Source: Prorocentrum cordatum (Eukaryota; Sar; Dinophyceae; Prorocentrales; Prorocentraceae). From it: a stretch of DNA of 64,000 bases. The stretch's first letter is position 1. The number at the start of each line of letters is the position of its first letter. The notes under the pieces are model-generated. The model did no database searches. It saw nothing but the letters and a program-made list of their open reading frames with translations, and had not been told where the DNA came from. Below, piece after piece: positions 14,990 to 59,615 of this stretch. Both the position numbers and the translations under genes were made by a program. The stretch covers positions 138,501 through 202,500 of the forward strand of contig CAUYUJ010018327.1 of NCBI GenBank assembly GCA_963575745.1, read 5' to 3'.

Positions 14990-15540
14990 GTCTTCCGCGA
15001 CGACTTCTTCCGCGACGGCTTCTTCTGGAATAATTGTCTTCAGGAAGAGGTCGTCCAGAAGAAGTGGTCCGGAAAGAAGTGGTCCGGAAGGAGTCGTCGC
15101 GGAAGAAGTCGTTATCGGAAGAAGTGGTCGGGAAGAGGCAATCCAGAAAAATTCGTCAGGAAGAAGTCGTCGAGACATAAGTTTTTCTCAAGAGATCGGT
15201 GCGGCGGAGACGGAGGAAAAGGTATGGGAAGACGATGACAAAGAAGGTGTTCGGAACGTTTGGAAGTAATGTTTCGGAAGAAGTGGTCCGAAAGAACTAG
15301 TCCTGAATAAGTCGCCTCGGAAGAAGTCGTCCGGAAAAAGTCGTCCGGAAAAAATTGTCTGGAAGAAGTCGTCCGGAAGAAGTCGTCCGGAAGAAGTCGT
15401 CCAGAAAAAGTCGTTTGGAAGAAGTCGTTTGGAAGAAGTCGTCCATAAGTCGTTTGGAAGAAGTCGTCCGGAAGAAGCCGTTCGGAAGAAGTCGTTTGGA
15501 AGGAGGTGACTGGAATAAATCGATTGGAACAAGTTTGCAT
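14990..15540. repeat. 14-bp minisatellite GGAAGAAGTCGTCC
   Basis: Tandem units of GGAAGAAGTCGTCC, cleanest at 15330-15500, with substitutions such as GGAAGAAGTCGTTT. Because 14 is not a multiple of 3, three units give a 14-residue peptide period (EEVVRKKSSGRSRP) in any frame, and the minus strand reads DDFFRTTSSGRLLP. Those peptides are repeat products. Confidence 0.9.
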
Positions 15541-15549
15541 GGCGCAATT

Positions 15550-16065
15550 GTGGTCATGTCGGCGCACCTCTCTCACATTTCGTGGCCCCAGTTGGAGCTT
15601 TACCGAAAGCCTTCATGGCAGGGTTCGCATGGAACTACCGCCGACCGCACTTCTTCCGGCACACCCCTCACATGTTCGTGCCTTCGTAGCTCCGCCGCAA
15701 TGGCAGGGTTCGCATGGCCCTACCTCGCTCGTTTAGGTACACCCCTCACAAGCTTCGAGGCTCCATAGGGAGCTCCACGGAAGGCCACAGTGGCAGGGTT
15801 CGCATGTGCCTGACCGCACCCATGTCAGCACACCTCTCACACGGTTCGTGGCCCCATGGTGGACTCCACGCAAGGCCCTGTTGGTGGGGTTCGCCTGGCG
15901 CCACCGCACCCATGTCTGCACACCCATCAAACGCTCCGTGGCCCCATTGGGAGTTTCACCGAAGGCCCCTGTGGCAGGGTTCGCATGGCGCCGCCGTACT
16001 CATGTCGGCACACCCCTCACACGTTTCGAGGCCCCGTACGGAGCTCCGCCGAAGGCTGCAGGGGA
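15550..16065. repeat. About 90-bp tandem repeat, five to six units
   Basis: GGCAGGGTTCGCATGG recurs at about 15617, 15702, 15792, 15883 (degenerate) and 15973, a spacing of 85-91 bp. Each unit also contains CACACCCCTCACAC-like and GAGCTCCACCGAAGGC-like blocks. Units are diverged. Confidence 0.85.
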
Positions 16066-16265
16066 GGAGGACGGGAGGCGCGGGGAGGAGCGGGACAATG
16101 GCGCGGAGACGGGCAGCACGTCCCTCGTGCGTTGGCGGGATTTGGTTCACGGAATGAGTGGTCCGGAAGAAGTCGTCGCGCAAGAAATCGCCTTCGGAAG
16201 AAGTGGTCCAGAATATGCCGTCTTGAAGAAGTCGCCTGGAAGAAGTCGGCGATGCAGATATTGTT

Positions 16266-16490
16266 CTCGGAGCACATCGGCGCGGAGGAGATGGAGGAGG
16301 AGGAGAAGGAGGACGAGGAGGAGGAGGAGGAGATGGAGGCGGGCGACGACATATGCGAGGAGGACGAGGAGGGGGAGGAGGAGAATGGAGAGGAGGCAGG
16401 TGAGATGATGGAGTAATAGGGGAGGAGGAGGACGACGAGGAGGAGGAGGAGGAGGACAAGGAAAAATAATAGGAGGAGGAATAAGTCCCA
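16266..16490. repeat. GGA/GAG-rich low complexity
   Basis: Purine-rich GAGGAGGAGG tracts; the plus strand encodes poly-Glu/Asp and the minus strand poly-Ser/Pro. Compositional only. A matching tract lies at 28301-28590. Confidence 0.9.
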
Positions 16491-16494
16491 AAGA

Positions 16495-16970
16495 AGTTGT
16501 CTAGAAGACATGGTTCGGGAGAACTCGTCCGGAAGAAGTCGCTCGGAAGAAGGCGCCCAGAAGAAGTGGCCTGGAAACAGCGTCCCAGAAGAATTCGCCC
16601 GGAAGAAGTCGCCTCGGAGGAAATCTCCCAGACAAAATCGCCTCGAAGGAATCGTCCGGAAGAACCCGTCCGGAAAAAATCGCCTGGAAGAAAACGCCTG
16701 GAAGAAGTCGTTCGGGAGAAGTCGCCCGGACGAAATCGCTCGGAAGACGTCGTCCGGAAGATTCGTTCGGAAGAAATCGCTCGGCAGAAATTGCTCCAGA
16801 AAATGCAGTTTCTGGAAGAACTCGGTCGGGAGGAGTCCGCCGGAAGGACTCGCCCAGAAGAAGCCCCGTCGGACGAATTAGGTCAAGGAAATTGCCCGGA
16901 TGGAATTGCCTTGAAGAAGTTGTTCCAGAAGAAGTCGCCTGGAAGAGGTGGCATCGGAAGACTGTTTTTC
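16495..16970. repeat. 14/15-bp minisatellite, degenerate
   Basis: Units related to GGAAGAAGTCGTCC but more diverged (CGGAAGAAATCGCC, TGGAAGAAGTCGCC), often 15 bp long so that a Lys/Arg/Ser/Glu-rich frame stays open. Similar units also occupy 16140-16265. Confidence 0.85.
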
Positions 16971-17437
16971 TGATGACGGCGTCTTCTCAGGTTCTCCGTC
17001 TCCGGGGCCGTTCACAAGCGGATCGGGATGAAGCAACTGCTTTCGGGAAGGGGTCCAGACATTTGGTGGTGTATTCAACGTGCGTTCTGGGGAGGCTTGG
17101 CTGGCGATTCTGGAGAAGGGGGAGGACGAAGATGAGAAGGATCTTCCTATGTCCAATCAAAGTTTTCCTTGTCGAGCGTTGCTTTGTTGCTGCTGACGGC
17201 GTGGAGTCGGAGGAGGAGGAGGAGGCCAAAGGAGGAACGGGCGCCGATGCCTCTGCCTGCTCCTCGCATCCACGGCTGGTGTTGTCCTGAGATTTCTAGT
17301 CAGGACGCGCCCTGTGAGATGTCCACCGTGTGTTTGGGGTTTCCGCACTCTGAAGAAAGCTGGGGCGAAGGCGAGAGATAGCGAGCGTTTGTCCGCGGCC
17401 GTTTGTGTTCAAGCGGGATTAGAAGGCCCAACCAGCA

Positions 17438-17456
17438 GCTTCGCCTAAGGCGAAGC
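17438..17456. other. Perfect hairpin, 8-bp stem
   Basis: GCTTCGCC TAA GGCGAAGC: an 8-bp perfect stem with a 3-nt loop. No U-run follows, so it does not look like a bacterial-type terminator. Confidence 0.75.
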
Positions 17457-17554
17457 CCAGCTCCAGCTCTGCCGTACCGTAGTAACGATAGTCCCAGACG
17501 TAGGAGGTCGTCGCGGGAGCGACGGGCCATGTCAAGCGAAAGTGTTTCGAGTAG

Positions 17555-17575
17555 TGTGCCTCGCGATGAGGCACA
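17555..17575. other. Perfect hairpin, 8-bp stem
   Basis: TGTGCCTC GCGAT GAGGCACA: an 8-bp perfect stem with a 5-nt loop, about 100 bp after the previous hairpin. Confidence 0.75.
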
Positions 17576-18044
17576 GTCATATCTCGGCGGCTGGCCTTTT
17601 TCAGACTTGGTAGCGGAGCTGGCCTATGGTGGTCAGCTCTTGCTCTACTCTTCACCATCCACGACACTATCTGGCGGACCAGTGACATGGTGGAACATCA
17701 GGGTGCAGTGGGTCTGCGCGGAGGAATGTACATAACTACGCACAACCGCAAGGACACTTGCAGTGTTACCTCCGCTCTCGCGAAGGCCTTTTACATGAGT
17801 CCCATTTCCCTGCGCGACTACACTCCTGAAGCCCACCCACCGGCTCCAAGTGGATTTTTTTTTTGAAAAAAAACATGCATGGCAACACGCGACATGACAT
17901 TGTGCCGCGTCCACCCCCGCGCGGGCTCACGACAAAACGCCACAAACCCAGCCACAAATATCCGACCACAACCTACGGGGCCACTGAATTGGCGTTGCTG
18001 TATTTGGCCTTCTGCGGGTCGCTATCGGGCGTGCTGCGGGGTAC

Positions 18045-19340
18045 ATGGGTGGTGGAGACGACACAGGAACAACCGGCTCCCACTGGGACCCGGCTGGTCA
18101 GGTACCTTTCCGCGAAATCGCTCGAGAGGTACATGCCTGGATCAATTTGACCACAGGCAATATGACCCCCTCCCAACAGGCTGCAGGACTATTGCGCGGT
18201 CTGGGGGGCCTCGCGCGGACCATGGCCATGAGAGTTCCCCCCGCAGTCGCAGTCATCAACTTTGGCGTCAACATTGGCGGCCGCCACACCGATGGCGCCA
18301 CCCACATTATGTTCCTCCTTAGTGCGAATTTTGAGAACTTAGAGGAGAAACGCCAATTTAACCCAGGAGCGGCTCCCATCGACTTTCGCGTCCAGGCGGG
18401 AGAACGGATCGACCAGACATTAGCCCCCTTCGAGATAGCCCGTTACGAGGCGGAGACTGTAACATCCCCAACTTCCAAATCCTAGCAGTCATTCTGTTCA
18501 GGGCCTTAGGAGTGGGGACGTCGCGTGCACAGCATATCCTACAGCCACTCAACCACCAAATGCCGAGGAATCAACAACAATCTGGTGCTTCACTGGAACG
18601 CATGAGGTCATATGCCGACATTGCTGAACGAACCCCTGGCAATATTGTTGGTATCTTTACCACGGGCACCGCGCCGAAACTTTTCATATTGATACTAATG
18701 CAGGGCAACCTGCTATAAATGTCTGGAACGATGATCCACAACCTCAAGAGACCACCACTTTATTAGCCCAAAACAGTGTTCCGGCTACGGGGTCGCAAGG
18801 CTCCTGGGCGAGATGCCAGGGACCGTCGGCAACGGCGGCCCCAGGGCAAGCCATTACCGTTGTAGGCTCAGCGGGGCAGCCCGCCGAGTCTGACATTGAC
18901 TCTGGAACCGACACCGACGCGTCATCGGGCGACGACACGACTGCCCCAGACCATTCCGACATGCCTACGTATCTTACAGAAGAGCAACAGACGCCATGGC
19001 GTTTTCTAGGATACCAGAAGCATAAACGCAGATGGAGCCGTTTTATGAAGAAGCCAATTCGTAAGGTACGACGTAGTACCCGACGGGCGCGTAGAGTGAA
19101 AGGTAGGGGTCGAGGCAAGCGTAAGGGCAAACGACGGCGATTGCATGGTAGAGGTATGATGGCATTCCTGGCATCCCTTACTGGACCACAATGCGAGAAA
19201 CCATTTCCGGGGGCAGGTAGAGGCCGTAGACATACCCCAGAAAGGTTAAGGGACGTCGGGGCAGCCCGAGAGATGTCAACGGTAAAACAATAGAATGCGA
19301 CATCTGCCATCGTACACAACACTTCCGCTGTGAATGCCCC
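18045..19340 (+). pseudogene. Gag-like protein with CCHC knuckle, broken
   Basis: Frame 18045-18485 reads INFGVNIGGRHTDGATHIMF and RIDQTLAPFEIARYEAE, a helical pattern like copia-type Gag (UBN2) capsid regions. A related part continues in another frame (LQPLNHQMPRNQQQSGASLE). Frame 18961-19293 is strongly basic (KHKRRWSRFMKKPIRKVRRS), fitting an RNA-binding region. The zinc knuckle CDICHRTQHFRCEC (CX2CX4HX4C, 19296-19337) follows one frame over, directly after a TAG stop, so a frameshift separates them. Nucleic-acid packaging by a Gag is the natural reading. Hairpins at 18700 and 18871 lie in its linker. Confidence 0.6.
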
Positions 19341-19343
19341 CGA

Positions 19344-20239
19344 GGCGATGGGAGGGGCAGGGGCCGTCAGTGCATTTGGCTTTCACCGGCTCGGACGTGC
19401 AATCTGTCGGCTGGGGGGCGCTATTGGCCGACCTTGCAGACACCCTTACTGCCGCTGCCCATTTCATGGATGCCAGGTATCTGAGTGCTAGCATGTTCCG
19501 CGGGAGATGCCGGCAAGCTCTTCGAGGAGATCTATGTTTATGTTGGCCGCAGTGAGATCAACTTGGCAGACTAGCTGGGCACGCCCAGCGCGGGGCAACC
19601 TGCGCACGTCGAGTTCGTTGAGGATTTCCGTATACCCGCCGATGTAGACCACGACATGGCGGGGGCGCCCGCGGATTCTGAAGCTGCAACTCCAGCAACA
19701 GAAGAGGAGATAAAACTGATACTCCGTCCGCAGTTCAGTGGTAATCCGATATACATATAACCGTATGATTATGATCCTTTGCGGGGGAAGCCCGCGCGAT
19801 GCCGGCGATCTTTCCGAACGCATCCAGCGCGAATTTGGACATGGCGAAGACCACAATTTCACGTTCGTGGCACATGAGCGGTCTCCGAGCCGCCATGAGC
19901 GGTCTACGGCCCGCCAAGTTTGGAGACGCGTTATTCGCGCAGATGACGGCGAGGACGAATGGGTAGCTCAGGACCGTCGCTTGCAGCGCCACGGTCGCAG
20001 TTGCTCACGCGGGCACTCGCGCGCGCGCTCCAGCGCCCCAAGGACTCCACCGAGAGGGGGGCGCTCGCGGGGGAACCCGCCTCAGATGGGGAACCAGCCG
20101 TCCAGCTGCGCCCGAAGCAAGAGGCGCGCAGCGTACACCCCCCAACGCGACGCAGCACTGGCTCGACCAAGGCTGGGCCGAGCATGACATCCGTCATCGG
20201 CATTCACTTCGCAACCTCACGCGGAATGACGCCGGCAAA
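19344..20239 (+). pseudogene. Unidentified coding-like segment, broken
   Basis: Starts HLAFTGSDVQSVGWGALLADLA, then shifts frame to an acidic stretch EFVEDFRIPADVDHD and further to basic, Arg-rich sequence (19738-20187). At least four frame changes. Four AGxPA-type hairpins (19590, 19659, 19781, 20067) punctuate it, and a second, different hairpin (19574-19589) touches the first. No domain is recognised; a spacer after Gag is the simplest view. Confidence 0.35.
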
Positions 20240-21106
20240 GTGTTCGCTCCAACAGGAACAAGGGCACCAAGACGCAAGCAAACCTTGAGAGAGGGGACCC
20301 CAAGAGGGCCGTCATTATTGACCGAGAGACCTACCAGTGCATTGTCTGCCCTTGCGAACATTTTGCCGACCGCAGACCTGCGCGTCCGATGGGGCGACTA
20401 TGAAGGGGCTCTGATTTCGAGAACTCCGTGGGCTTGGTCTCATGGAGATGGTCTGGGTCGCAGGGCGGGCCCGGCCAATCACCCCCCTGCAGAATTCTTG
20501 ACTGAAGATGACTACCGGCCGATTGCTGAGGGCGAGGTCGAGCGGATCGAGCGAGTTTGGCAGCGCCCCAGCAGTAACCACCGCCTCAAAATACACCATC
20601 GAGAATGCCATGAGGAGGCGGGTGATGCACCGCTCGCGGGGCAACCCGCTTCTTCTCATGAGGTTGCCGGCCATCCAGAAGGCGATGAAAAGGGGCTGGT
20701 CGTGCGGGTCTCGCCGGGGCGGTGGGCCCTACTGCTGCCGCCCCATCCAGCGGAATGCACCTACGAGACGGACGTGTCGGGCAGCTCCCACAAGACGATC
20801 ACGAAGATAGATGTCTCCAAACAGGTAACAGAAGACATGGGTCTTGCTCCAGGTACGACAGTCGCTTACACTTGCAGGGAAATAGATTGGATAACCACCC
20901 CTGTACTGCGAAGGGCTAGCGCTGGCAAGTGCGATGTGAGCTGCAAAACTGGGGCCAAGATCAAGAACATGGCACTCTTCAAGCCGGATGCGCCAGGGGC
21001 CCCAGGGGCGGGGGAACCTGCGGCACCATCTCCAGCGTGGGCACCCGCAGAGGAACCGCCACGGAATCGGAAGCCCCCCCAAGAAGAAATCAGGGACAGA
21101 TATTGA
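20240..21106 (+). pseudogene. Unidentified 288-codon open segment
   Basis: The longest early frame in the block. It contains RVRWGDYEGALISRTPWAWS, a tract with Glu/Arg helices (EGEVERIERVWQRPSSN), and near the end VAYTCREIDWITTPVLRRAS plus CDVSCKTGAKIKNMALFKPD, ending in a Pro/Ala-rich tail with the hairpin at 21008. Another hairpin is at 20636. The paired Cys residues are too few to call a zinc site. The 288 codons without a stop suggest either recent decay or retained coding, but the neighbours are frameshifted. Confidence 0.35.
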
Positions 21107-22118
21107 TCTATCCCCAACTCCGAGGACGCCAAGGTCACCTGCAGCTGATCAGCTACCGGCTCAACATAAGAACAGGACCCATTCGGCTGACGCCGATCCT
21201 GGCAGCAACGAATCCCAAAGATATGCGGGGAAACTCCCGCAAATGCATCGCTCCAGAGGACCAGCAGTGGCCGCAGCAGCAGCAGCGTTCCAAGGCGACA
21301 GCGCACCTGCGCCGAAAGATCCTGTATTCCTGCGCGGCCCGACGCCTGGCAATATCCATGGATCAGGCTGGGCGCCGTCACTGGATGGATCATCTAGGGG
21401 AGCTTCCTCATCAGAAGACGGCGTGGACGTTAAGCTGTTGGAAACAACCTCAAAGGCACCGGGAGCGGCTCCCACAACTACTGCATGCCATTATCGCGAT
21501 ATCCGTGAAAAGGTAAAGGCATCTCGGAGCGCCAGCTCATCAGCAGCGCCCGCAGCGCTTGAGCCAGTGAGGTCGCATGGGGAACCAGCCGCCGCTCCTG
21601 CGGGGCAACCCGCTGCTGCCCCTGAATTGCTTGAAGAAAGCAGGCGGTACTGGGGGACCTTGGGTATTGTTAACCAGATGAAGATCAACCCAGCGTACAG
21701 GCCCTCTGGCACTGACGGGTCTGAACACTACAGAGTGGTGCAATTTGACATCGGCTGTCCCGCCATGCGCGCTGATGGCGACGCTCTTGCAAGTCAGCGT
21801 GTCCGCGGCCTGCTGCGGAAGGAACCTGCTCTCATTTATAAATCCGAGAATGGATATCTGATGGAGGTTCTTCGGAATGAGCATCTCCGCGCGACGTTAG
21901 TAAACGATTCCGACAAGCGTGCATGCTCGGAATGGCTCACAACTGCCGCGCGGCACATGCCATTCCACAACGACGAGCCCTCCGATCGGTTCGTTATAAC
22001 TGTAATTTTTCCTATGACGAATGCGACGGCTGGGTGGGCCTCAAAAGACTTACTGAACAATTGGCCGCCCGCAGACTCACAGGGAGACCTGGCATCGCCG
22101 CCACCTGGGCGCCGTTAA
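21107..22118 (+). pseudogene. Unidentified open segment (helical, charged)
   Basis: A frame open from 20988 to 22118 gives, in its second half, a compact protein-like stretch: GSEHYRVVQFDIGCPAMRAD, LLRKEPALIYKSENGYLMEV and PSDRFVITVIFPMTNATAGW. The strand-helix pattern suggests a folded domain, but I cannot name it. Upstream is a Ser/Ala/Pro-rich linker with the hairpin at 21600-21613. The frame ends just before the KptA-like segment, in a different frame. Confidence 0.35.
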
Positions 22119-22640
22119 GAGGTGCCTTCGAGGCCGACATTAGGCCTACCAGGTACTTGGAGGTATTGGATTTCTGCGGAATGCTCGACTCCTCGGGTGC
22201 GCAGAAGACCAGGCCCCACGTAAAGAAGCTCAAGTTCACCGGGGGGGCCCGCCCGACGTACTTCTGGCGTCCTGGCAATGGGCATAGCAGTCCAGGCATC
22301 AAATGCCCAGAGCCTCAATACTCACGAGCAACAGACCTGACAGCGCCGGGAGAACCCTGCTATTTCATTCACGGCGCAAGATGGGTGAATATCCCGAACA
22401 TGCTCCACGTCGGTCTGTCAGGCCGCGGCGGGGACACCCCAAATGGAAGGGGCTGACAATTTCTTCGCGGTTGCCCATGCTTACCTCGAGATGGGCGGAT
22501 CCAATCTGGCCTGCGAATAGATTCCGAAGTGTTAATCCTTGTGGTCCTCAAGAATCTACTTCGCGACAACATCTCGATTTGGCGCTCTGTCGTATGACGC
22601 CAGGCCGCGATGGGGGGATCCTGCCAAGCCACATTGTTCC
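22119..22640 (+). pseudogene. KptA/Tpt1-like RNA 2'-phosphotransferase segment
   Basis: In one frame: CYFIHGARWVNIPNMLHVGL, then an internal TGA after PNGRG, then DGRIQSGLRIDSEVLILVVL; the neighbouring frame between them reads GRGDNFFAVAHAYLEM. KptA/Tpt1 enzymes (NAD-dependent removal of an RNA 2'-phosphate, ADP-ribosyltransferase fold) have an HGT-x(n)-I-x(2-4)-GL motif followed by an R-x(2-4)-E/V strand, and both are recognisable. The expected N-terminal winged-helix Arg is not identified, and two frame changes rule out a working enzyme here. The match is by eye; an unrelated fold cannot be excluded. Confidence 0.4.
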
Positions 22641-23163
22641 GCTCATTGGCATCAGGCCTAACGATGTTCAATGCAAGCACGATCGAGTTGGGCAGGTGTG
22701 GTTCAATCCTCTGTGCACCGAAGTCAGCCAGCAGGGCAGCCTGCGTGCAACTACCAATGTTCCAAGGAGTTGCTATGAGGTACCTTTCGATGCATCAACA
22801 TTGAGAGGATGGATGGTACCGCAGACTCCGTGCAACCGAAAGGTCCCTGCGCCGACACCTACGCAAGATGTCGAACATGCCTCCATGTTCACGATGCAGG
22901 AGGCATGCCAAGCAGGGGCACCTGCGCGAGGCTCGGATGGTTCATGGATTCAAGCCCAGAGTGCTGATTTGTTTGGTTTGACGCCCAACGGGATCACGCC
23001 CGCCGGCTGGCTGCATGCGCGCGACCCGCGGCGCGCCCAGGCGCAGCAGATGCCTGCGCCTGCAGGGCAACCTGCATCATTCGTACCTACGAGCAGGGCT
23101 ACGACTCCATTTGGAACTCCACAGAGCGCTGGGAGTGCCAATAGTCTACAAGCCAGGCTCTAA
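22641..23163 (+). pseudogene. Continuation of KptA-like protein and Pro/Ala linker
   Basis: The frame open from 22303 to 23163 reads, after the KptA-like core, SHIVPLIGIRPNDVQCKHDR and VGQVWFNPLCTEVSQQGSLR, plausibly the end of the same domain. A linker follows with three hairpins (22731, 22912, 23062) encoding QQGSL-, QAGAPA- and PAGQPA-type peptides. The first of the three is read out of the AGxPA frame here, which shows that a frame change lies near it. Confidence 0.35.
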
Positions 23164-24156
23164 AGTATCAGAATGGATCCTCAGCTCTATCAGGCCTTAA
23201 AAGCGACATCGCCATTTGCAGCGCCACGTGCTATTGCAGGACAACCTCCCACTAACGACCATGAAGCTGCCCAGCGGGCCGAGAGCCTGTTGTGACAGCA
23301 GCAGTGGATGCATAGGCAGATGCGCGAGGCCATGCAGAGCACGCGACTGGATGGCATCGACCTCCCAGACCTGGACGCCCCCATGGGAATATATCCCAGG
23401 TCCGAACCCATCACGGGATCATCCCAACCGATATGGGTACATTACAGCATTCTTTAGCCACCCGACGCACGACCCAACGGCTGCTGGAAGGTCAACTGCT
23501 CCACCTATGGATGCCCCATGTTCCCTGACTACTGCGCTGAGGAGACGGGCTTCCCACGCATTGGCGCTCAGCCCGAGAGCCCGTACGTTCGGGCAACAGC
23601 TGGTGACTTCTACCGGTCCAAGCTGACGCGCGGCGCTGGGCATGAACCTGGCGCGCCAGGCCAAGTACCTCCCTGCGGATACCTGGCGGCCCCCATGGAC
23701 CAGGAGGTTACACACCATGGCCCTGAGTTAGTGGCACCATCGTCCATGGGAGAGCTGCGTCCCGAGATCTTGGCCGCCCATGAGGCGAAGCTGGCCAATC
23801 CCCCCATGCAACTGGCTCGCCAGCGCCGCAATCAGAAGCGCGAGCAACGCCGCATGATGAATCGTGCGGGGACACCCGCTGCTCCTACGCCTGCGGGGCA
23901 ACCCGCTATAAATGTAGCAGCAGTGGCAGCCGTGGGGGCACTGCCCGCGGCGCAGCAGATGACACCTGCGGCCCCGCCGATCCAGAATGGGATTGGAGAG
24001 TCCACACTTGAGCGACAGACGCGCATCAGGCCATCGGCAACGCCACTAATCATCAGCGACGGTGGCTTTACCAAATGTGCCATACATCGCCGCGACGAAA
24101 GTTTCCTTCCATTTGCCTTTTGGAATGACGCGCTCGTGCGTAGTAGGTCGGGGTAG
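23164..24156 (+). pseudogene. Unidentified coding-like segment, broken
   Basis: In another frame a stretch IAGQPPTNDHEAAQRAESL follows a decayed hairpin (23236-23249, CCTCC for CCTGC). The frame 23518-24156 is basic and Met/Gln-rich (QLARQRRNQKREQRRMMNRA), then carries two hairpins (23866, 23893) encoding AGTPA and AGQPA. It ends with DGGFTKCAIHRRDESF, whose Cys may be the first ligand of the RING-like region that follows. A 14-bp perfect palindrome CCTGGCGCGCCAGG is at 23648-23661. Confidence 0.35.
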
Positions 24157-24287
24157 TTCTACTAAAACTACTCCGCGCTCAATCGCATCCCGCTGGGTAA
24201 CTTATATGGTCTGGCGCAGAGTAGTTTCCGATCCCGTTTTGGGGTAACAGAGTTATTAACGTCTCCGGGATCGGAAACTATTCCGCC
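24149..24287. repeat. Compound inverted repeats
   Basis: Two foldbacks. First: arms CGGGGTAGTT (24149-24158) and AACTACTCCG (24166-24175), one mismatch. Second: arms 24219-24236 (GAGTAGTTTCCGATCCCG) and 24266-24283 pair over 18 bp with one mismatch around a 29-nt loop, and extend outward through GGCG with a 2-nt bulge (24213-24287). The stretch AGTAGTTT is shared by both. It falls between two parts of a RING-like sequence, so it may be an inserted small foldback element. Confidence 0.75.
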
Positions 24288-24344
24288 GAATGATTCCCAG
24301 CATCATGTCATGTTAGGAATCGTGAGAGGGGTATGAGAAATCTT

Positions 24345-24669
24345 CATCATAGCAAATTGAAGAAACTTTTGTCACGGCTGCGTATGCTTGGAACATTTCG
24401 TCTACCACGACAAGGCGTGGAGGATTCATTGTGGCCACGTATTTCACGCGCAATGCTGGGATCGAGTTGCTCGCGCGCATGTGGGCCGGCAGCTGGCAGG
24501 CGCGCTGGGCGGTATCACAAGCGAGGCACCCTGTGCCATTTGCCGTGGTGTTGGCCTCGTCACAGCTGAGTTTCACTATATGCCCTTGCTGGAGATCATA
24601 ATGCAACGAATCGACATGAGGAAATACCCCGCGGGGAACATGAACTCAGAGACCTTCGTGAAGATCTGA
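24345..24669 (+). pseudogene. RING-H2-like zinc-binding segment
   Basis: One frame reads FCHGCVCLEHFVYHDKAWRI, then HCGHVFHAQCWDRVARAHVG, then EAPCAICRG. The spacing C-x2-C ... C-x-H-x2-H-x2-C ... C-x2-C matches a RING-H2 finger, with a longer than usual gap before the last Cys pair. RING fingers mostly serve as E3 ubiquitin ligases. The first methionine lies inside the domain, so the piece is the continuation of an upstream frame, interrupted by the inverted repeats at 24149-24287. Downstream it continues HYMPLLEIIMQRIDMRKYPA. Function in this context is unknown. Confidence 0.5.
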
Positions 24670-24677
24670 ACCGTATC

Positions 24678-24956
24678 ATGGCGATGATGACAGGCGCTAC
24701 AGTTGCCGCCGGGGCACCATCCGCATCTGCGGGGCAACCTGCGTTATCCTCCAATGTGGGGCAGGTTCCAACAGCCGCGGCGACTGCCACAGATGCGCCT
24801 ATGTCTCTGGTGGCCGAATCAGCAGATAATGCAGGGGCTCCTGCTGCAGCAGCATCAGCAGGGCTACCTGCCAATGGTCAGCGGTTGAGGCGCATGGCCC
24901 CGAGCACCATGCGGCAGCGTGCCCTATGGCCGCCCGCCGCGACGGCGCAGAACTGA
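24678..24956 (+). pseudogene. Ala/Gly/Pro-rich linker with three hairpins
   Basis: A 92-codon frame beginning MAMMTGATVAAGAPSASAGQ. Hairpins at 24729, 24831 and 24858 encode AGQPA, AGAPA and AGLPA. A fourth, GCCGGGGCACC at about 24707, looks like a decayed copy. The C-terminus turns basic (GQRLRRMAPSTMRQRALWPP). No domain. Confidence 0.35.
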
Positions 24957-25690
24957 AAGTTCAGTGAGCGTGCGCTGCGGCACCAGTGCCATATCTGAGC
25001 GCGCTATGCTGCATACGGTGCGAATGGTCAACGCAGCTGGGCAGATTGCTGCGCGCGCCGACGACGATGCCTTCGAGACCGCGCTGCTCTCTCCGCGGCA
25101 TCTTCATATGTACGACGAGTACCCATCGGCCTGGATCTCCCAGAAACAGCCCATCACAGAAGAGCAGGCCAGCGGGCACATGAACGTCTTCGCGTCCTTG
25201 GCAAGGGACCAATGGGTGCTGGAACAGAAACGCCGTAAGGGCATTCATGGCGCGACACTGTCTGACGTGCCACGGGTATTCGGAGAACGCCATGAGCTGG
25301 CCCTAGCAGCGAATAGTGGGACCATGGTAGATGGCATGCTGATTATCCCACTGGGCATGGCAGCAACATCGATATCATTGGTCCAAAGGCTGCACAGACG
25401 TTCGAGCGGGTGTCACGCTCCCACGGGCTCGACATCAATAAGCTTAGCCTGACGAAGAGGTTGTACGCGTCTTGCGCGGGGCATGGAGCCGCCATCTGTG
25501 ATAAGTCGTTGCGTTGCAAGGTTGCCTGCAAGGAGAGAGGCGATCCTGCGGGGGAACCCGCTCTGGCCAGGCTCGACACATCAACAGCCAACGTGGCTGA
25601 AGGCTCCGACGAGAACCTTCCTGCGATCCTGGGTCTGATGAGCATGTCCAACACGCGCGCGATCCTGATCCTGGAGCAGGGGCACGGGTA
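24957..25690 (+). pseudogene. Unidentified coding-like segment, broken
   Basis: The frame 24919-25452 gives MLHTVRMVNAAGQIAARADD, LSPRHLHMYDEYPSAWISQK and DGMLIIPLGMAATSIS, a folded-looking alpha/beta pattern. The next frame (25410-25691) reads DINKLSLTKRLYASCAGHGA and ILGLMSMSNTRAILILEQGH. A hairpin at 25548 encodes AGEPA. A frameshift near 25390 separates the two. No family recognised. Confidence 0.35.
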
Positions 25691-25691
25691 G

Positions 25692-26312
25692 ATGATCATC
25701 CCAGGTTCAGAGATGCATTGGCTCCTCTTTGGTAAAGGTGCCAGAGTACTCGACCTCATGAAGACGCCCCCGGGGCACCTGGCGATCAAGGTCGACGAGT
25801 GCGGGGTCGCAACAGAGGATAATGGCTCAACGGCATGTACTGCAACGGCCAATCCTCTCTGTGAAGATACGCCCCCGCTCGTCAAGGAGGTGGCCGACGC
25901 AGATCCAACCGCAGGGCAACCTGCTGCGAGCGGCGCGGGGGCACTGGCTATCAGCGACGCCCGCGCGTACATGATGCCCCAGAACACCAGGGGCATTCGC
26001 TTCTCCATCAACGAGGAGACGCTTCCCTACACGACCCAGTCTTCGGTAAACGACACCCTCAAGACCTGGCAGCGCAGGAACACGGCGCATGGGAATGTCC
26101 CTACACCTGCCGATCAGGACTTCGCCCCACGCAACTTGCAGGCGAAGCTCTATCAGGCCATCCACGAGGAGGGCAGCAAGTTGATGCCGCCCGACAGCGC
26201 TGCAGGGGCACCTGCTGGAGTGAATGCAGGGGCACCTGCTGGAGTCGGCGACGCTGCCGAGAAGATCTTCACTTCGAGCAGTGGCGCAGCGGTGCACGGC
26301 ACAGGCGTTTGA
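25692..26312 (+). pseudogene. Unidentified coding-like segment with AGAPA repeats
   Basis: MIIPGSEMHWLLFGKGARVL follows the previous segment after one TAG, so the two were probably continuous. The sequence continues acidic (VDECGVATEDNGS, EDTPPLVKEVADAD), then the hairpin at 25911 (AGQPA), a polar stretch, and two tandem hairpins at 26202 and 26226 encoding SAAGAPAGVNAGAPAGVG. A near-copy GCGGGGGCACTGGC is at 25936. The stop at 26310-26312 ends the frame. Confidence 0.35.
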
Positions 26313-26403
26313 ACGCCCCCATCGATAGAAAAAGGAGTGACGGGGGCAGGCGCGCGCCGCGGCCACTCGCGCTTGCCCAGACAGGCCGAACGCTCAGGTT
26401 CTG

Positions 26404-26895
26404 TTGTCAGGCGCGGGGGCGCCTGCGCACTTTTCCCAGGCGCAGGCTGCGCGCGCCCGGGACAGTGGCGGACCCGGCTGCGAGGCCGCCAGAGACAGCG
26501 GCGGACCCGGCTGCGTGGCCGCCGCAGTAAATGAACGCGCAACACATCATTATCATCCCCGTTCTCTTGTTATCGAAGACATACGAACAGCTTACGCTGA
26601 ATGCCGAGCTCGAGGATACATGTGCGATCGCATCACTCCCGCAGAGGTTATGACCTCTACAGGTGCACAGTATTTGGGTGGATTACTTTCAGGGGATTAC
26701 AATTTACTGCGGGTGGCAACGCCCGCTGACTGGCATGTTCGATTGCCTGGAAAGCGGGCGGGGCCGCACTACCCGCGCATTCAACATCTTACGATTACTG
26801 CTCGGGCTCTACGTGTGTCGATAGTACTTGTGGGATCTCCAGGTTACTTCTGGAAGCAAGGCCCCATACGAGATACTATTGAGGATTTAGGCTAG
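26404..26895 (+). pseudogene. Unidentified 163-codon open segment
   Basis: After a GC-rich start, the sequence from 26530 reads RSLVIEDIRTAYAECRARGY, VMTSTGAQYLGGLLSGDYNL and RIQHLTITARALRVSIVLVG, which looks like a folded domain. It is not identified. The GC-rich part holds a hairpin GCCTGCGC/GCGCAGGC (26421-26447) and a 33-bp tandem duplication around GGCGGACCCGGCTGCG (26467-26526). Confidence 0.35.
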
Positions 26896-27588
26896 CAGGT
26901 CATGCGTATGCGATGCTGCCAGTTCGGTCTCGAAATTGACCGCTCAAGTTGCTTGCCCAGCGGTTCTTGCCTGCACGCTGCGACCGCCTACGCGCGCATC
27001 CCGACCAACTTGTGGAGATGCACGTGCCATACTGTAGGGGGACCCGCACAGCATGCTGAGCATGAATGAGGCTGGCATGGCCAAGGCGCACAAAAGACGG
27101 AAGGGCGAAACAAAGCACTTGCCATCGTGGTTGCGAGGCTTATTGACCAGGTATTCTCGCCCAAAACAAAGAGAAATCATACAAGTGTTGCGAATTTCCG
27201 CGTCCACGCAAAGGGTGGGCAAAGGAGCTCGAACTCACGTTCAGTCTCTTAAGAATGGCCCTGAATGGGGCCATGTCGCGAGACGGGTGACAATGACACT
27301 TGACGACGATATTGTTATACAAGACAGTCAGATTCAAGATTAACCGGTCGGGTGCAAGTACAATGCGCCTTTACCGAACGGTGTGACGAATATGCGTGCT
27401 CGATTGCATTGGGAGCCTCTGGCGCCAGTCCTCATCGGACACGAGGGCCAGCGACCGCGCCCAAGGCGGGTTGCGATCGTCGATGACGATCGTCTTCCCC
27501 CCCCCCGATTGAGCGCGTCCGCGCGCCCCCCATATTCCCGAATTTCCGACTTCACCCGACACAGAACAAGAGACAGCATTACCAACGG
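26896..27588 (+). other. Weakly coding-like stretch
   Basis: A 96-codon frame (27053-27343) is basic, with MAKAHKRRKGETKHLPSWLR and KQREIIQVLRISAST, and ends in an acidic tail. Elsewhere the frames are short and contradictory. A degenerate hairpin (GTAGGGGGACCCGC) is at 27034-27047. A C9 run occurs near 27498. Confidence 0.3.
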
Positions 27589-27912
27589 ATGCCCGGATCC
27601 AGCAAACAGAAAAACAGAAATTTGACAATGAAGCCGGCACCGAGCCACGCAAGATACGAAGACGGCAACGACGCTTTCGGCAAAGACCTGAAGGGTCTCG
27701 GATGTGGCGCTTACTACACCGACGCCCCCCTTGACTCCGACACCGACAGCGATGACGAGGAGGAAACCTTCATCGCACTACCAGCGGGGTTACCTGCGGA
27801 TGCACATGCCGATGTGTTTTCCATAATCCCAACCTTGCTACGGACGACGCAACGAGGTAGATATGCTGGAACCGCGAAGAGGAAATGGGGGCACATCGCA
27901 GTTAGCTTTTAG
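27589..27912 (+). pseudogene. Short acidic coding-like segment
   Basis: A 107-codon frame with DAFGKDLKGLGCGAYYTDAP, an Asp/Ser-rich acidic run (DSDTDSDDEEE) and, at the hairpin 27784-27797, PAGLPAD. It ends at TAG 27910-27912. Not identified. Confidence 0.3.
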
Positions 27913-28300
27913 CCGGGGGTAATCCTCAGGAGGAAACCTCGACAGACGCTCAGATGTTGACCTTGGAAACAAGGATGTCCAGAACGCACTGATGCATTAC
28001 TTGGATGTGTGTTTCGCCAGCGCTGTTATATCACAGCCCAAGTGCAGAACGATTGGGCTACCATCTCACTTCAATTCTACAGTCAACTATGACACATGGC
28101 ATGAACACCATGCATCAGACCTTCCACACATCAAGTTTTGTGGAAGGGCTGCCGTACGCCAAAACGACATTCGACGGCGTTACTTACGAGAACAACTGGT
28201 GGGCACTTGGGTGGACGAAGTACTGCCTGGTACCCATATGTTCGCCCCTCCAGGCGTTTGCCACGTGGCGAGTACAGTGGAGTAGTTTCAGTATCTGGCC
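27913..28300 (+). pseudogene. Terminal coding-like segment of the block
   Basis: The more protein-like reading is the frame 28005-28358: SFVEGLPYAKTTFDGVTYEN and NWWALGWTKYCLVPICSPLQ, aromatic-rich, before it runs into GGA-rich repeat. A competing frame (27992-28285) is open over the same DNA. Not identified. Confidence 0.3.
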
Positions 28301-28590
28301 CGCAATCTTTGCCGCGCGCCGAGGAGAGGGGCGAGGGGGAAGGGAAGAGGAGAAATGAACGAAGAGGGAAGGGGGGAATTTGGGAGGAAGCAGGAGGGAG
28401 AAGGGCGGAGGGAATAGGAGGAGGAGGTGAGACGCAGGAGGGGGGAGGGAGGAGGCAGGAAGGAGGACGCAGGAGAAGGGAGAGGAGGCAAGAGGCAGGA
28501 GGAGGGGTGAGTAGTGAGGAGGGATGAGAGGATAATACGAGGCCTGGGAGGAAGAGCGGGGGGGTGGAGGATGAGGGGGAGCGAGGAGGG
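28301..28590. repeat. GGA/GAG-rich low complexity
   Basis: Purine-rich GGGAGGAGG tracts like those at 16266-16490, placed immediately before the second minisatellite, as in the first array. Long open frames on both strands are compositional. Confidence 0.9.
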
Positions 28591-28599
28591 GGCCAGCAG

Positions 28600-29365
28600 A
28601 AGTCGCATCGGCAGAATTCACCTTCGGAAAAAGTTGTCCAGAAGAAATCGCCTGGAATACGGGGCCCAGAAGAAGGCGCCCCAGAAAAATTCACCATCGG
28701 AAAAGGTCGGCCTGAAAAGCTCTTCCTGAAAAACTCGCCCAAAGGAAATCGCCCCAGAAGAAATCACCAGATCGGAAGAAATATTTTGGAAGAGCTCTTC
28801 CGGAAGAAATTGTTCGAAAGAAGACGCCTCGAACGAAGACACCTTCGGACAAATTCGCCTGGAAGAAGATCTCCTCGGAAGAAGTCGTCCAGAAGAAATC
28901 GTCTCGGAAGAAGACGTCCAGAAAAAGTTCGGAACAAGTTGTTCGGATGAGGCGGTCCGGAAGAAGCCGTCCGGAAGAAGTCGTTCGGAAGACGTCGTCC
29001 GGAAGAAGTCGTCCGGAAGAAGTCGTCGCGGAAGAAACCGTGCTATGAAGACACCGTTCTAGGAAGAGACCGTCGCGGAGCATATCGAGGGATATGGGGG
29101 GACAAACCAAGGAGTAGGAGGAGTAGGAGGTGGAGGATGCACGACGAGGCAGGGGAGAAATTTTCGGACGAAGTCGTCCAGAAGAAGTCGTCCAGAAGAA
29201 ATCGTCCGAAAGAAGACGTTCCGAAGAAGTCGTCCGGATGAAGTCGTCGCGGAAGAAGTCGTCGTCGGAATAAGTCGTCCGCAAAAATGATTCCGAAAGA
29301 AGTGGTCCGGAAAAAGTCGTTCGGAAGCACTCGTTCGGAAGAAGTCGGCGCGGAAGAAGCAGTAG
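28600..29365. repeat. 14-bp minisatellite, second array
   Basis: Units of GGAAGAAGTCGTCC and variants (GGAAGAAATCGCC, GGAAGAAGACGTCC), same orientation as at 14990-16970. They are cleanest at 28960-29030 and 29160-29260, with a short GGA-rich interruption at 29100-29150. Confidence 0.9.
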
Positions 29366-46780: not shown

Positions 46781-47460
46781 CAAGGTCATGGGGGTGCCGA
46801 ACACGCACTCCGGGCAGAAGCCCATGTGGCTGCAGGCCTCGTGGGGCTTCTCTCCGCAGGCAATGCAGTCCTGCAGCGGCTGGTAATATTCGTCGTGAGG
46901 TAGAGCGGCGGCGGCAATGTCGCCAGAGTGAGGCTTGGGGTAGGTGTTGCCGTAGAGTAGCACACGAATGCCGATGCAGCCGACATGCTTGGACCCCTTT
47001 GGTCGGCGAGGCCGTAGGTGTCTTGCCACGTTTAGCGTCTTCTTCTTGTTGATGAGCTTGCTGATGGACTCGGTCAACGACTCGGTCCTGATGGCGTGGT
47101 TGACGGTCGGGGCGCTATCCGTTTTGGTCCTTCCAGTCGGTCTAGTAGGGGCCTCGGTGCCAGCATCCTTGATCGCTTGCCAACCCTCAGGCTGCGGACA
47201 AATCGCGGGGTGACCCGCGCTGCTCGTGACGAGCTTCTAGGCGACATTCCGATGCGGATCTGCCCCTTCCAGAGCGAGGTGTCGATCTTGGAGGGGTGTA
47301 TGAAGTCTCGTCCGATGAGGAGGCCCAGCGAGGGGCTCTTCACGACGCTGAACACGATGCGGCCGGCCCGGCCGCAGAGCACTAGCGGCGCGGTCACGCG
47401 CATCTTGCTAGAGAGGGTGCCCCCGTTGCCGAAATTGTAGACCTCGTCCTCGGGCTTCAG
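46781..47460 (-). pseudogene. Copia A protease end and Cys-rich segment
   Basis: MRVTAPLVLCGRAGRIVFSV followed by PSLGLLIGRDFIHPSKID (47400-47290) matches the end of the protease fold, where GLLIGRDF is typical. The D-T-G core lies in a poorly preserved frame before it. After several frameshifts, YYQPLQDCIACGEKPHEACS then HMGFCPECVFGTPMTLEDYA (46800-46880) has two CX2C pairs and may bind zinc. Stops at about 47230 and 47074 break the frame. Confidence 0.6.
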
Positions 47461-56200: not shown

Positions 56201-56459
56201 CTGAGACGTTCTCGCATTTGATTCAGGGATCGCGATCTCGCGTGGGACTTCTTTCCAACTTGTTCAATAATCGCTCTCGCGGCGCTCTGGAGTCGCGCTC
56301 TCGCTGGGGATTTATGTGCAATGTACTAAAGAATCGCGCTCTTGCGTTGGAATTCGCTGCAATTTACTCAAGCGCCGCGGTCCCGACACTCAGGCACCCA
56401 GGAGTCGTCGCGCTCACGTTTAGGATTCACCCACAGCTTGTTCAGGAATATGGATATCG

Positions 56460-57270
56460 CTGCCCTTCGTGGCCCCGTTGCAGCCCTTCGTGGCCCCCTC
56501 GCTGCCCTTCGTGGCCCCGTTGCAACCCTTCGTGGCCCCCTCGCTGCTCTTGGTGGCCCCGTTGCAGCCCTTCGTGGCCCCCTCGCTGCCATTAGTGGAC
56601 CCGTTGCAGCCCTTGCGTGCCCCCCTCGCTGCCCTTCGTGGCCTCGTTGCAGCCATTCGTGTTCCCCTCGCTGCCCTTCGTGGCCCCGTTGCAACCCTTC
56701 GTGCCTCCCTCGCCGCCCTTCGTGGCCCCGTTGCACCCCTTCGTGCCCCCCTCGCTGCCCTTCGTGGCTCCGTTGCAGCCCTTCGTGGCCCCCTCGCTGC
56801 CCTTCGTGGCCCCGTTGCAGCCCTTCGTGGCCCCCTCGCTGCCCTTCGTGGCCCCATATCTGTATGCCCTTTGGGGCCCCCGCTCGTTCGCGCCCTTCGT
56901 GGCCCCATATGCATGCGTTTCGTGGCCCCGCTGTCGCCTTCCGTGGCCCCGTCGCTGCCCTTCGTTGCCCCGTTGCTGCCCTCGATGGCCCCGTCCTTGC
57001 CGTCTGCAGCCCAATATTCGTATGCCTTTCATGGCCCCCGCTCGTTCGCGCCCGTCGTGGTCCCATATGCATGCCCTTTGTGGCCCCGCTGTCGCCCTTT
57101 GTAGCCCCCTCGCTGTCCTACGTTGCCCCGTTGCTACGCTCAGTGGCCCTGTCGTTGCCTTCTGTGGCCCAGCATTATCTGCCCTTCGTGGCCCCCGCTC
57201 GTTCGCGCTCTTCGCGGCCCCATACGCATACCCTTCTTGGCCCCGCTGTCGCCCCTCGTGGCCCCCCTTT
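56460..57270. repeat. 21/42-bp minisatellite GCCCTTCGTGGCCCC, array 1
   Basis: GCCCTTCGTGGCCCC is followed alternately by CTCGCT and GTTGCA, giving a 42-bp higher-order unit. Since 42 is a multiple of 3, the plus strand reads FVAPSLPFVAPLQP, AALRGPL or PSWPPRC repeats and the minus strand EGATKGCNGATKGS or RAARGPRRAATGP; five or more frames are open for 0.5-1.2 kb. All are repeat products. Confidence 0.95.
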
Positions 57271-57560
57271 TTTCCCTCCGTGGCCCCGATGTCGCTCTCG
57301 CTCGCGTATTCGCTCGTCGTCGTCGTCGTCGTGGTCGGTCCCCTGTCCGTCCCTCTTGGGGTCGGGTTGCCGCCGATCAGCGCTGCCGCTGGCCAGGCCG
57401 ACGGTCCGCGGCCGCCCCGCCGCATGCCGGGGCCCGGCCTGCAGGGAAGAAAAATATACCTTTGACAAGGGACAGGATCGAAGACGAAGAGGGCGGCTAC
57501 CGAGGGTTCGGGAAATACACGTTGAATGACACTCGAGCAGATAAGAGCGATCAGTCTTAA

Positions 57561-58994: not shown

Positions 58995-59615
58995 CTCGCT
59001 GCCCTACGTGGCCCCCATCGCAGCCCTTCGTGGCCCCCTCGCTGACCTTCGTGGACCCGTTGCACCCCTTCGTGCCCCCCTCGCTGCCCTTCGTGGCCCC
59101 GTTGCACCCCTTCGTGGCCCCCTCGCTGCCCTTCGTGGTCCCGTTGCACCCCTTCGTGGCCCCTCGCTGCCCTTCGTAACCCGTATACGTATGCCGTTCG
59201 TGGCCCTCGCTCGTTCGCGCCCTTCGTGGCCCCATATGCATGCGTTTCGTGGCCCCGCTGTCGCCTTCCGTGGCCCCGTTGCAGCCCTTCGTGGCCTCGT
59301 TAGTGCCCTCAATGGCCCCGTCCTTGCCGTCTGCGGCCCAATATACGTATGCCCTACGCGGCCCCCGTTCGTTCACGCCCGTCGTGGCCCCATATGCATG
59401 CCCTTCGTGGCCCCGCTGTCGCCCTTTGTACGTGGTCCCCTCGCTGCCCTACGTGGCCCCGTTGCTACGCTCAGTTGCCTCGTCGTTGCCTTCTGTGGCC
59501 CCGCATTATCTGCCCTTCGTGGCCCCCGCTCGTTCGCGCCCTTCGTGGCCCCATACGCATGCCCTTCGTTGCCCGGTGTCGCCCTTCGTGGCCCCTTTCC
59601 TGCTGTTTTTGGCCC
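58995..59615. repeat. 21/42-bp minisatellite, array 2
   Basis: Same units as at 56460-57270, in the same orientation and with the same flanking landmarks (CCATATGCATGC, GCCCCCGCTCGTTCGCGCCC), but shorter. It belongs to the duplicated unit 58520-59960. Confidence 0.95.

Follow-up and report, generated by a model that had tools for sequence, protein, structure and literature searches.

A 64,000-nucleotide (nt) stretch of the Prorocentrum cordatum genome (contig CAUYUJ010018327.1, positions 138,501–202,500), referred to here as the window, contains 22 units of a 14-nt hairpin, all of which fall within a truncated retroelement copy and, read in phase with the surrounding open frames, encode the peptide Ala-Gly-x-Pro-Ala (AGxPA). 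Our leading hypothesis, to which we give an even chance, is that these units act in cis as RNA hairpins of a large, Ty1/copia-like retroelement that is abundant in the genome, with the hairpins formed by the sense strand and kept in frame with its coding sequence.

The pattern GCNGGN4CCNGC matched 24 times on the plus strand of the window, and 22 of these matches lay between 18700 and 27797, in agreement with the original prediction of 22 copies in 9.1 kb. Markov nulls of the region (300 runs each) averaged 0.54 (order 2) or 0.79 (order 3) matches and never exceeded 4, which rules out a chance origin of the 22 hairpins. All units lie on the plus strand and were identified by pattern match and alignment of element copies. 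Those reading AGQPA are GCAGGGCAACCTGC (18700..18713, 23062..23075, and 25911..25924), GCGGGGCAGCCCGC (18871..18884), GCGGGGCAACCTGC (19590..19603 and 24729..24742), GCGGGGCAACCCGC (20636..20649, 21600..21613, and 23893..23906), and GCAGGGCAGCCTGC (22731..22744). AGAPA is encoded by GCGGGGGCGCCCGC (19659..19672), GCAGGGGCACCTGC (22912..22925, and as units 1 and 2 of a 24-nt tandem pair at 26202..26215 and 26226..26239), GCAGGGGCTCCTGC (24831..24844), and GCGGGGGCGCCTGC (26413..26426). The remaining units read AGEPA (GCGGGGGAACCCGC, 20067..20080 and 25548..25561; GCGGGGGAACCTGC, 21008..21021), AGTPA (GCGGGGACACCCGC, 23866..23879), or AGLPA (GCAGGGCTACCTGC, 24858..24871; GCGGGGTTACCTGC, 27784..27797, where only 12 sequences aligned without a gap). 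Outside the 14–15 nt the units share no common sequence, apart from a few local duplications.

The composition of the units largely bore out what had been predicted. All 22 encode AGxPA, where nearly all had been expected to, the Gly codon is GGG in every one, and 11 loops are GNRA tetraloops (GCAA 8, GGAA 3). Because the pattern reads identically on both strands, orientation was judged from the first loop base, which is G in all 22 units; the claimed common orientation holds on this basis, while the palindromic pattern alone is no evidence of orientation. The third bases of the first Ala codon and the Pro codon combine as A-T in nine units, G-C in eight, and G-T in five, and never as A-C (Fisher two-sided p = 0.0055). 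The predicted absence of A-C is thus confirmed, and the earlier counts of 9, 9, and 4 are corrected. The versions of the 14-mer by pair type are GCAGGGNNACCTGC, GCGGGGNNACCCGC, GCGGGGNNACCTGC, and GCAGGGNNACCCGC.

Two of the 24 pattern matches fall outside the retroelement copy. An isolated exact motif match outside the element, GCGGGGTGACCCGC at 47205–47218, is interrupted by a stop when read as AGxPA and is probably a chance match, since no part of copies L031–L036 matched around it.

The carrier of the hairpins is, judging by comparison with its relatives, a retroelement copy and not a set of host genes: a truncated, stop-ridden member of an abundant family. BLASTN of three copies (L031–L036) against the window placed this disrupted copy, with all 22 hairpins, at 17360..28234 on the plus strand, where the three copies matched in pieces over about 17.4–28.23 kb with about 67–81% identity. 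The 5' limit, at about 17.36–17.60 kb, is set by the single copy L033. At 28234 the window copy is truncated on its 3' side, and L034 and L036 remain alignable with each other past the point at which they match the window.

Alignment of 29 other copies revealed that most of the nine sites in the 3' part correspond one to one; the exceptions are L003 and L016, which did not align at the first three of these sites, and 27784, which was partly covered. In four longer copies most of the 5' sites correspond as well, and L033 lacks several through larger deletions. At as many as seven places, L068, L031, L033, or L035 carry matching hairpins although the corresponding match in the window copy is decayed or absent, and L036 has two further hairpins past the part that matches the window. 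Differences between copies at the hairpin sites are mainly substitutions and small indels. The sole gain or loss of a whole unit at a hairpin site is that of the 24-nt tandem unit at 26202/26226, absent from 9 of 29 copies. Homogenisation between sites was rejected, as characteristic middle residues are kept per site across copies. From these alignments the hairpins are read as old, fixed parts of the element. The original prediction had proposed a small element inserted between unrelated protein segments, and this is not supported, since other copies have the hairpins at orthologous sites; the comparison that it suggested, between sites with and without a 15-bp insert, yielded no clean 14- or 15-bp empty site in the aligned copies.

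The constraint on nucleotides was compared with that on the peptide in the best-scoring 30 copies for each of two queries, with the window counted in each; these do not form a random sample. Three copies were left out: L019 and L047, which duplicate L018 and L046, and L049, which matched on both strands. This resulted in 28 + 27 = 55 copies, some of which are two parts of one element, and, with gapped cells excluded, in 392 site-by-copy cells at 16 sites. The majority 14-mer over the aligned copies was GCRGGGNNACCYGC at all 22 sites, with a tie at position 12 of site 19659 (2 T, 2 C), whereas the majority 15th base was free (T at 8 sites, G at 7, A at 4, and C at 3). Over the 392 cells the AG and PA residues were conserved at 0.87–0.92, compared to 0.56 for the middle residue and 0.63 for flanking codons. 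The first Ala codon ended in A or G in 348 of 362 cases, Gly in G in 328 of 350, and Pro in C or T in 329 of 341; the last Ala codon showed all four third bases (A 89, C 61, G 71, T 125).

Hairpin codons were further compared with flanking codons matched for the start codon and the next base. GGG was retained in 208 of 215 hairpin codons versus 235 of 294 in the flanks, and CCT kept its T in 226 of 241 versus 125 of 193. The change from GCA to GCG, which turns an A-T pair into G-T, was commoner in hairpins (53/184 vs. 14/177), and that from CCT to CCC was rarer (9/241 vs. 22/193). At loop position 4, the third base of the middle codon, 218 of 263 cells had A; these are the 272 intact cells less 9 in which the middle codon is a stop. 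Expected were 62.7 ± 6.8 from the codon usage of the same residues and 66.6 ± 7.0 with the next base also matched. This preference was seen for each of Gln (89/96), Ala (44/58), Thr (27/32), and Leu (21/23). The majority base at this position was A at 22 of 22 sites, compared to 5.5 expected by codon usage, and the middle residue across sites is Gln, Ala, Glu, Leu, Thr, or Lys. As the first two positions of this codon vary by site while the third stays the same, the result is hard to derive from the peptide or from descent.

The claim of selection on nucleotides beyond the peptide, in a hairpin-like pattern, is therefore supported, since GGG, CCT, and the loop A are kept beyond matched codons. 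A third-base pattern in line with the genome's Ala/Pro codon usage and conservation of AGxPA at the same sites in all homologues had both been named as possible signs of a mere peptide motif. The third bases depart from the element's codon usage, as for a nucleotide element; AGxPA is conserved at the same sites, as for a peptide. Taken together, these results indicate that both layers, peptide and nucleotide, are present in the units.

Evidence for an RNA stem comes from the pairing of the third bases. Among 255 intact purine/pyrimidine cells, A-T was found in 107, G-T in 84, G-C in 58, and A-C in 6, three of the last from site 25548. Within-site shuffles gave a mean of 9.5 A-C cells (p 0.005). 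The site-majority pairs, only marginal when taken by themselves, were G-T at nine sites, G-C at seven, A-T at six, and A-C at none. Common G-T together with rare A-C fits the pattern expected of a sense-strand RNA stem. The hairpin-like pattern is thus supported; covariation in the strict sense, with switches between A-T and G-C, is modest, and the strongest signal is the loop with its fixed G and preferred A. G and A closing a four-base loop form the GNNA/GNRA arrangement. The isolated 14-mers of the window are predicted to fold at −6.8 to −9.3 kcal/mol each, and in a 104-nt context the mean stem probability was 0.36, compared to 0.19 for a synonymous control. Rfam gave no match at E 1 in the window from 17300 to 28400, and a known Rfam family was rejected on this ground; a 14-nt hairpin may be too short for covariance models.

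Several observations weigh against RNA hairpins as the object of selection or limit the force of the counts. Cells of related copies are not independent, and site majorities rest on 3–5 sequences each at the six sites from 18700 to 20636 and on 12 at 27784. With the same start codon, A or G was kept in 96% of the first Ala codons of hairpins and in 93% (GCA) or 89% (GCG) of flanking Ala codons; because the flanks keep A/G nearly as often, the bias in the first Ala codon is largely attributable to descent. Its third base was no better conserved (0.762) than that of flanking Ala codons (0.760). The change from CCC to CCT occurred at the background rate (16/82 vs. 32/157), and that from GCG to GCA was not clearly reduced (20/173 vs. 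25/136, p 0.11). Parsimony showed slower change than at other fourfold third positions for positions 6 and 12, but not for positions 3, 9, and 15. The loop A is present in 17 of 22 units of the window copy itself, and three of its site majorities are narrow (e.g., A 14/G 13 at 25548 and A 14/G 11 at 23866). Taken by site, the lack of A-C is in itself weak evidence (about 0.07, by hand from the margins). Only pair 3–12 varies enough for testing; its T-A and C-G versions are almost unused, so the purine at position 3 is fixed past the need for pairing, and pairing alone does not explain this position. In the 104-nt context the stem probability exceeded 0.5 for only 8 of 22 hairpins of the window copy.

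The proposed unit would consist of a 5-bp GC-rich stem (GCRGG/CCYGC) and a GNNA tetraloop, in which A is preferred as the last base and G tolerated. The units appear to be placed in poorly conserved linkers, always in frame to give AGxPA: the three codons on either side were conserved at 0.55, and more distant codons at 0.62–0.65. The RNA form would be what selection acts on, with the peptide as the cheapest coding by-product of the hairpin; among the three frames of the 14-mer, the used one presumably gives small residues and one free residue. Because the units lie in linkers, the array can be read as RNA signals placed at least coding cost. An element-encoded protein, most likely Gag-type or otherwise RNA-binding, may bind the array at many points and so serve the packaging, protection, or assembly of the RNA from which it derives. 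By analogy, our best guess is that the hairpins are dispersed RNA–protein contact sites such as packaging signals; the units could also combine a peptide role with an RNA role. Somewhat short of an even chance, in our judgment, is the fuller proposal of a retrotransposon with a dispersed dual-coded array, in which more than 20 near-identical in-frame GNNA hairpins/AGxPA linkers provide a code for assembly or recognition that an element protein reads, and persist although the family has diverged to about 67–81% identity. We know of no other such array in a retroelement of the long terminal repeat (LTR) type.

Three alternatives appear about equally improbable to us. AGxPA could be selected as a peptide, i.e., as a linker, a contact motif, or a cleavage site of the element's own protease, with codon likeness resulting from duplication of one ancestral unit. 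The conservation of AG and PA above flanking codons agrees with this, as do AGxPA in the local open frames at all 22 units, the tandem duplication of the 24-nt unit at 26202/26226, and the presence of AGxPA in 22 of 27 homologous proteins (in P0025, it stands in another context). The two Ala codons, however, behave differently, the first being almost confined to A/G and the last using all four third bases; the middle residue varies by site while the majority of its third base remains A; and GGG and CCT are retained far above matched nearby codons. A pure peptide motif was rejected on the matched-codon retention and the loop A. Rather doubtful, too, is a near-palindromic DNA site for a DNA-binding protein, be it a host chromatin factor, a methyltransferase, or the element's integrase. 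GCRGG-N4-CCYGC is palindromic in duplex DNA, and position 3 is held to a purine more strictly than pairing requires, but a symmetric site predicts A-C as often as G-T (6 and 84 of 255 observed), and the loop G and A are asymmetric, with all 22 units of the window copy following the coding strand. It is likewise not very likely that the units are RNA hairpins with a job other than packaging, such as unit-to-unit dimerisation, nuclear export, control of translation or splicing, or service as substrate of the element's own Tpt1/KptA-like enzyme. The units are mutually complementary, many lose in local folding, and the element has a Tpt1-like stretch; yet the evidence favours none of these jobs, and the Tpt1-like match lies below Pfam's cut-off.

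Far less probable than any of these is a miniature mobile element capable of in-frame insertion into genes, in the manner of the Rickettsia palindromic elements. A short in-frame palindrome in many copies resembles such a system, but the sites are orthologous, decay is mainly by substitution, no clean empty site was found, and just 2 of 24 pattern matches in the window are outside the element. In addition, the 15th base is free, and the unit is therefore 14 nt long, so that its insertion would break the frame. Insertion into host genes was rejected as far as tested, on the orthologous sites.

The genome of P. cordatum CCMP1329 is described as 4.15 Gb in size with 59.7% GC (PMC10666404). The assembly searched here comprised 4,128,499,153 bases in 21,875 contigs, and the window has 59.8% GC. 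For a 206-amino-acid frame of the region, all 150 candidates scored out of 4,407 first-look candidates matched; a second frame gave 139 matches (134 of 4,526 candidates scored) and a third 121 (108 of 11,644 scored). As these matches came from partly scored candidates, the genome likely holds thousands of copies of the element.

Regarding coding content, a scan of the window's own frames against Pfam found little besides a RING-type zinc finger. It lies in the open frame at 24361..24666 (plus strand; zf-RING_5, E 2.6e-4, under the cut-off in the window copy); in copy L031 (L031:1116-1862, minus strand) zf-RING_11 scored 30 bits, above the cut-off of 27. The open frame at 21881..22453 (plus strand) corresponds, by eye, to a stretch of L068 that points weakly to a Tpt1/KptA-like RNA 2'-phosphotransferase encoded by the retroelement. 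The L068 open frame (L068:3319-5112, minus strand) matched PF01885 (E 5.6e-4, below the Pfam cut-off) and, in the PDB, chain 7yw3_A, tRNA 2'-phosphotransferase 1 (E 8.9e-5); the window frame 21881–22453 itself had no Pfam match at E 1, and frame 20940–22115 had no match in the PDB. Such a stretch would be, to our knowledge, an unusual passenger for a retroelement. A protease-like region with a GSN motif (assigned by eye) and the linker after it occupy 25317..26309 on the plus strand, with a TAG break at 25689–25691; the part from 25692 to 26309 served as the query for relatives. Relatives P0020 and P0021 contain LLDIGSN, which we take to be a retropepsin motif and which had no Pfam match. With an apparent order of protease, integrase, and reverse transcriptase, the element looks Ty1/copia-like, on weak domain matches: downstream in copy L036 lie integrase-like and reverse-transcriptase-like pieces (RVT_2, E 0.0029; rve, E 0.066, in the integrase-like relative P0026), with both matches below Pfam cut-offs. 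For four copies, which are truncated or partly fetched, a comparison of 5' with 3' sequence detected no LTR pair; the sole repeats were 91-bp overlaps of the fetched pieces. Of the 27 element homologues (P0001–P0027), 26 are labelled Pyramimonas sp., a green alga, in EukProt, and one is in NCBI.

The window copy also carries a 300-bp insert (24084–24383) that three other copies lack at the same point. Its ends form imperfect inverted repeats of some 25 nt (by eye), and it resembles an introner or a small DNA transposon. Tandem arrays of a 14-bp unit like CGGAAGAAGTCGTC flank the element copy at 15043–16789 and 28876–29359, as if the copy sat inside such an array. Elsewhere in the window, nested 21/42/158-bp long tandem repeats like TCGCTGCCCTTCGTGGCCCCG occur at 56457–57295 and 58995–59595.

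Dispersed packaging signals of single-stranded RNA viruses are described as numerous short motifs of sequence and structure that have a recognition motif in common (PMC6281560). The array resembles them in that a shared motif is scattered through a replicating element, here at 22 sites with one majority motif. It differs in that its near-identical 14-mers are locked to one peptide and frame, lie in a retroelement, and are known from sequence alone. Viral packaging signals are more degenerate than the units found here. In Ty1 RNA, packaging and dimerisation hairpins are located at the 5' end, and the first 326 nt form a pseudoknot with kissing hairpins (PMC5454406). Both cases involve cis-acting hairpins in LTR-retrotransposon RNA (predicted in ours), but those of Ty1 lie at the 5' end, whereas here 22 copies extend through about 9 kb of coding-like sequence. 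Mitochondrial genes of Nematomorpha contain perfect coding inverted repeats of up to 284 bp (PMC6649704). Inverted repeats inside coding sequence with both layers preserved are common to the two systems; the nematomorph repeats are perfect and mitochondrial, and the abstract of that paper speaks of no motif common to them. Introners, another case of inverted repeats in dinoflagellate genomes, are introns that carry such repeats at each end (PMC10666404; reviewed in PMC11453091); the hairpins, in contrast, lie inside open frames as AGxPA. Different again is the array from the palindromic elements of Rickettsia, since the hairpins are fixed in one element family and no insertion at unrelated sites was seen in the aligned copies. 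The Rickettsia elements are longer in-frame palindromes inserted in unrelated genes. No description of such hairpins was found in open-licence PMC papers, which does not show their absence from print; there is a real chance that the array is something previously undescribed.

If the proposed RNA role is correct, one 14-nt motif in more than 20 repeats would provide a clean, countable example of letters under selection for RNA structure and protein sequence at once. The free 15th base beside 14 constrained ones would serve as a built-in control, which is uncommon among overlapping-code cases. The idea of dispersed packaging signals would extend from RNA viruses to LTR-type retrotransposons, and the array would offer a handle on how retroelements filled giant dinoflagellate genomes.

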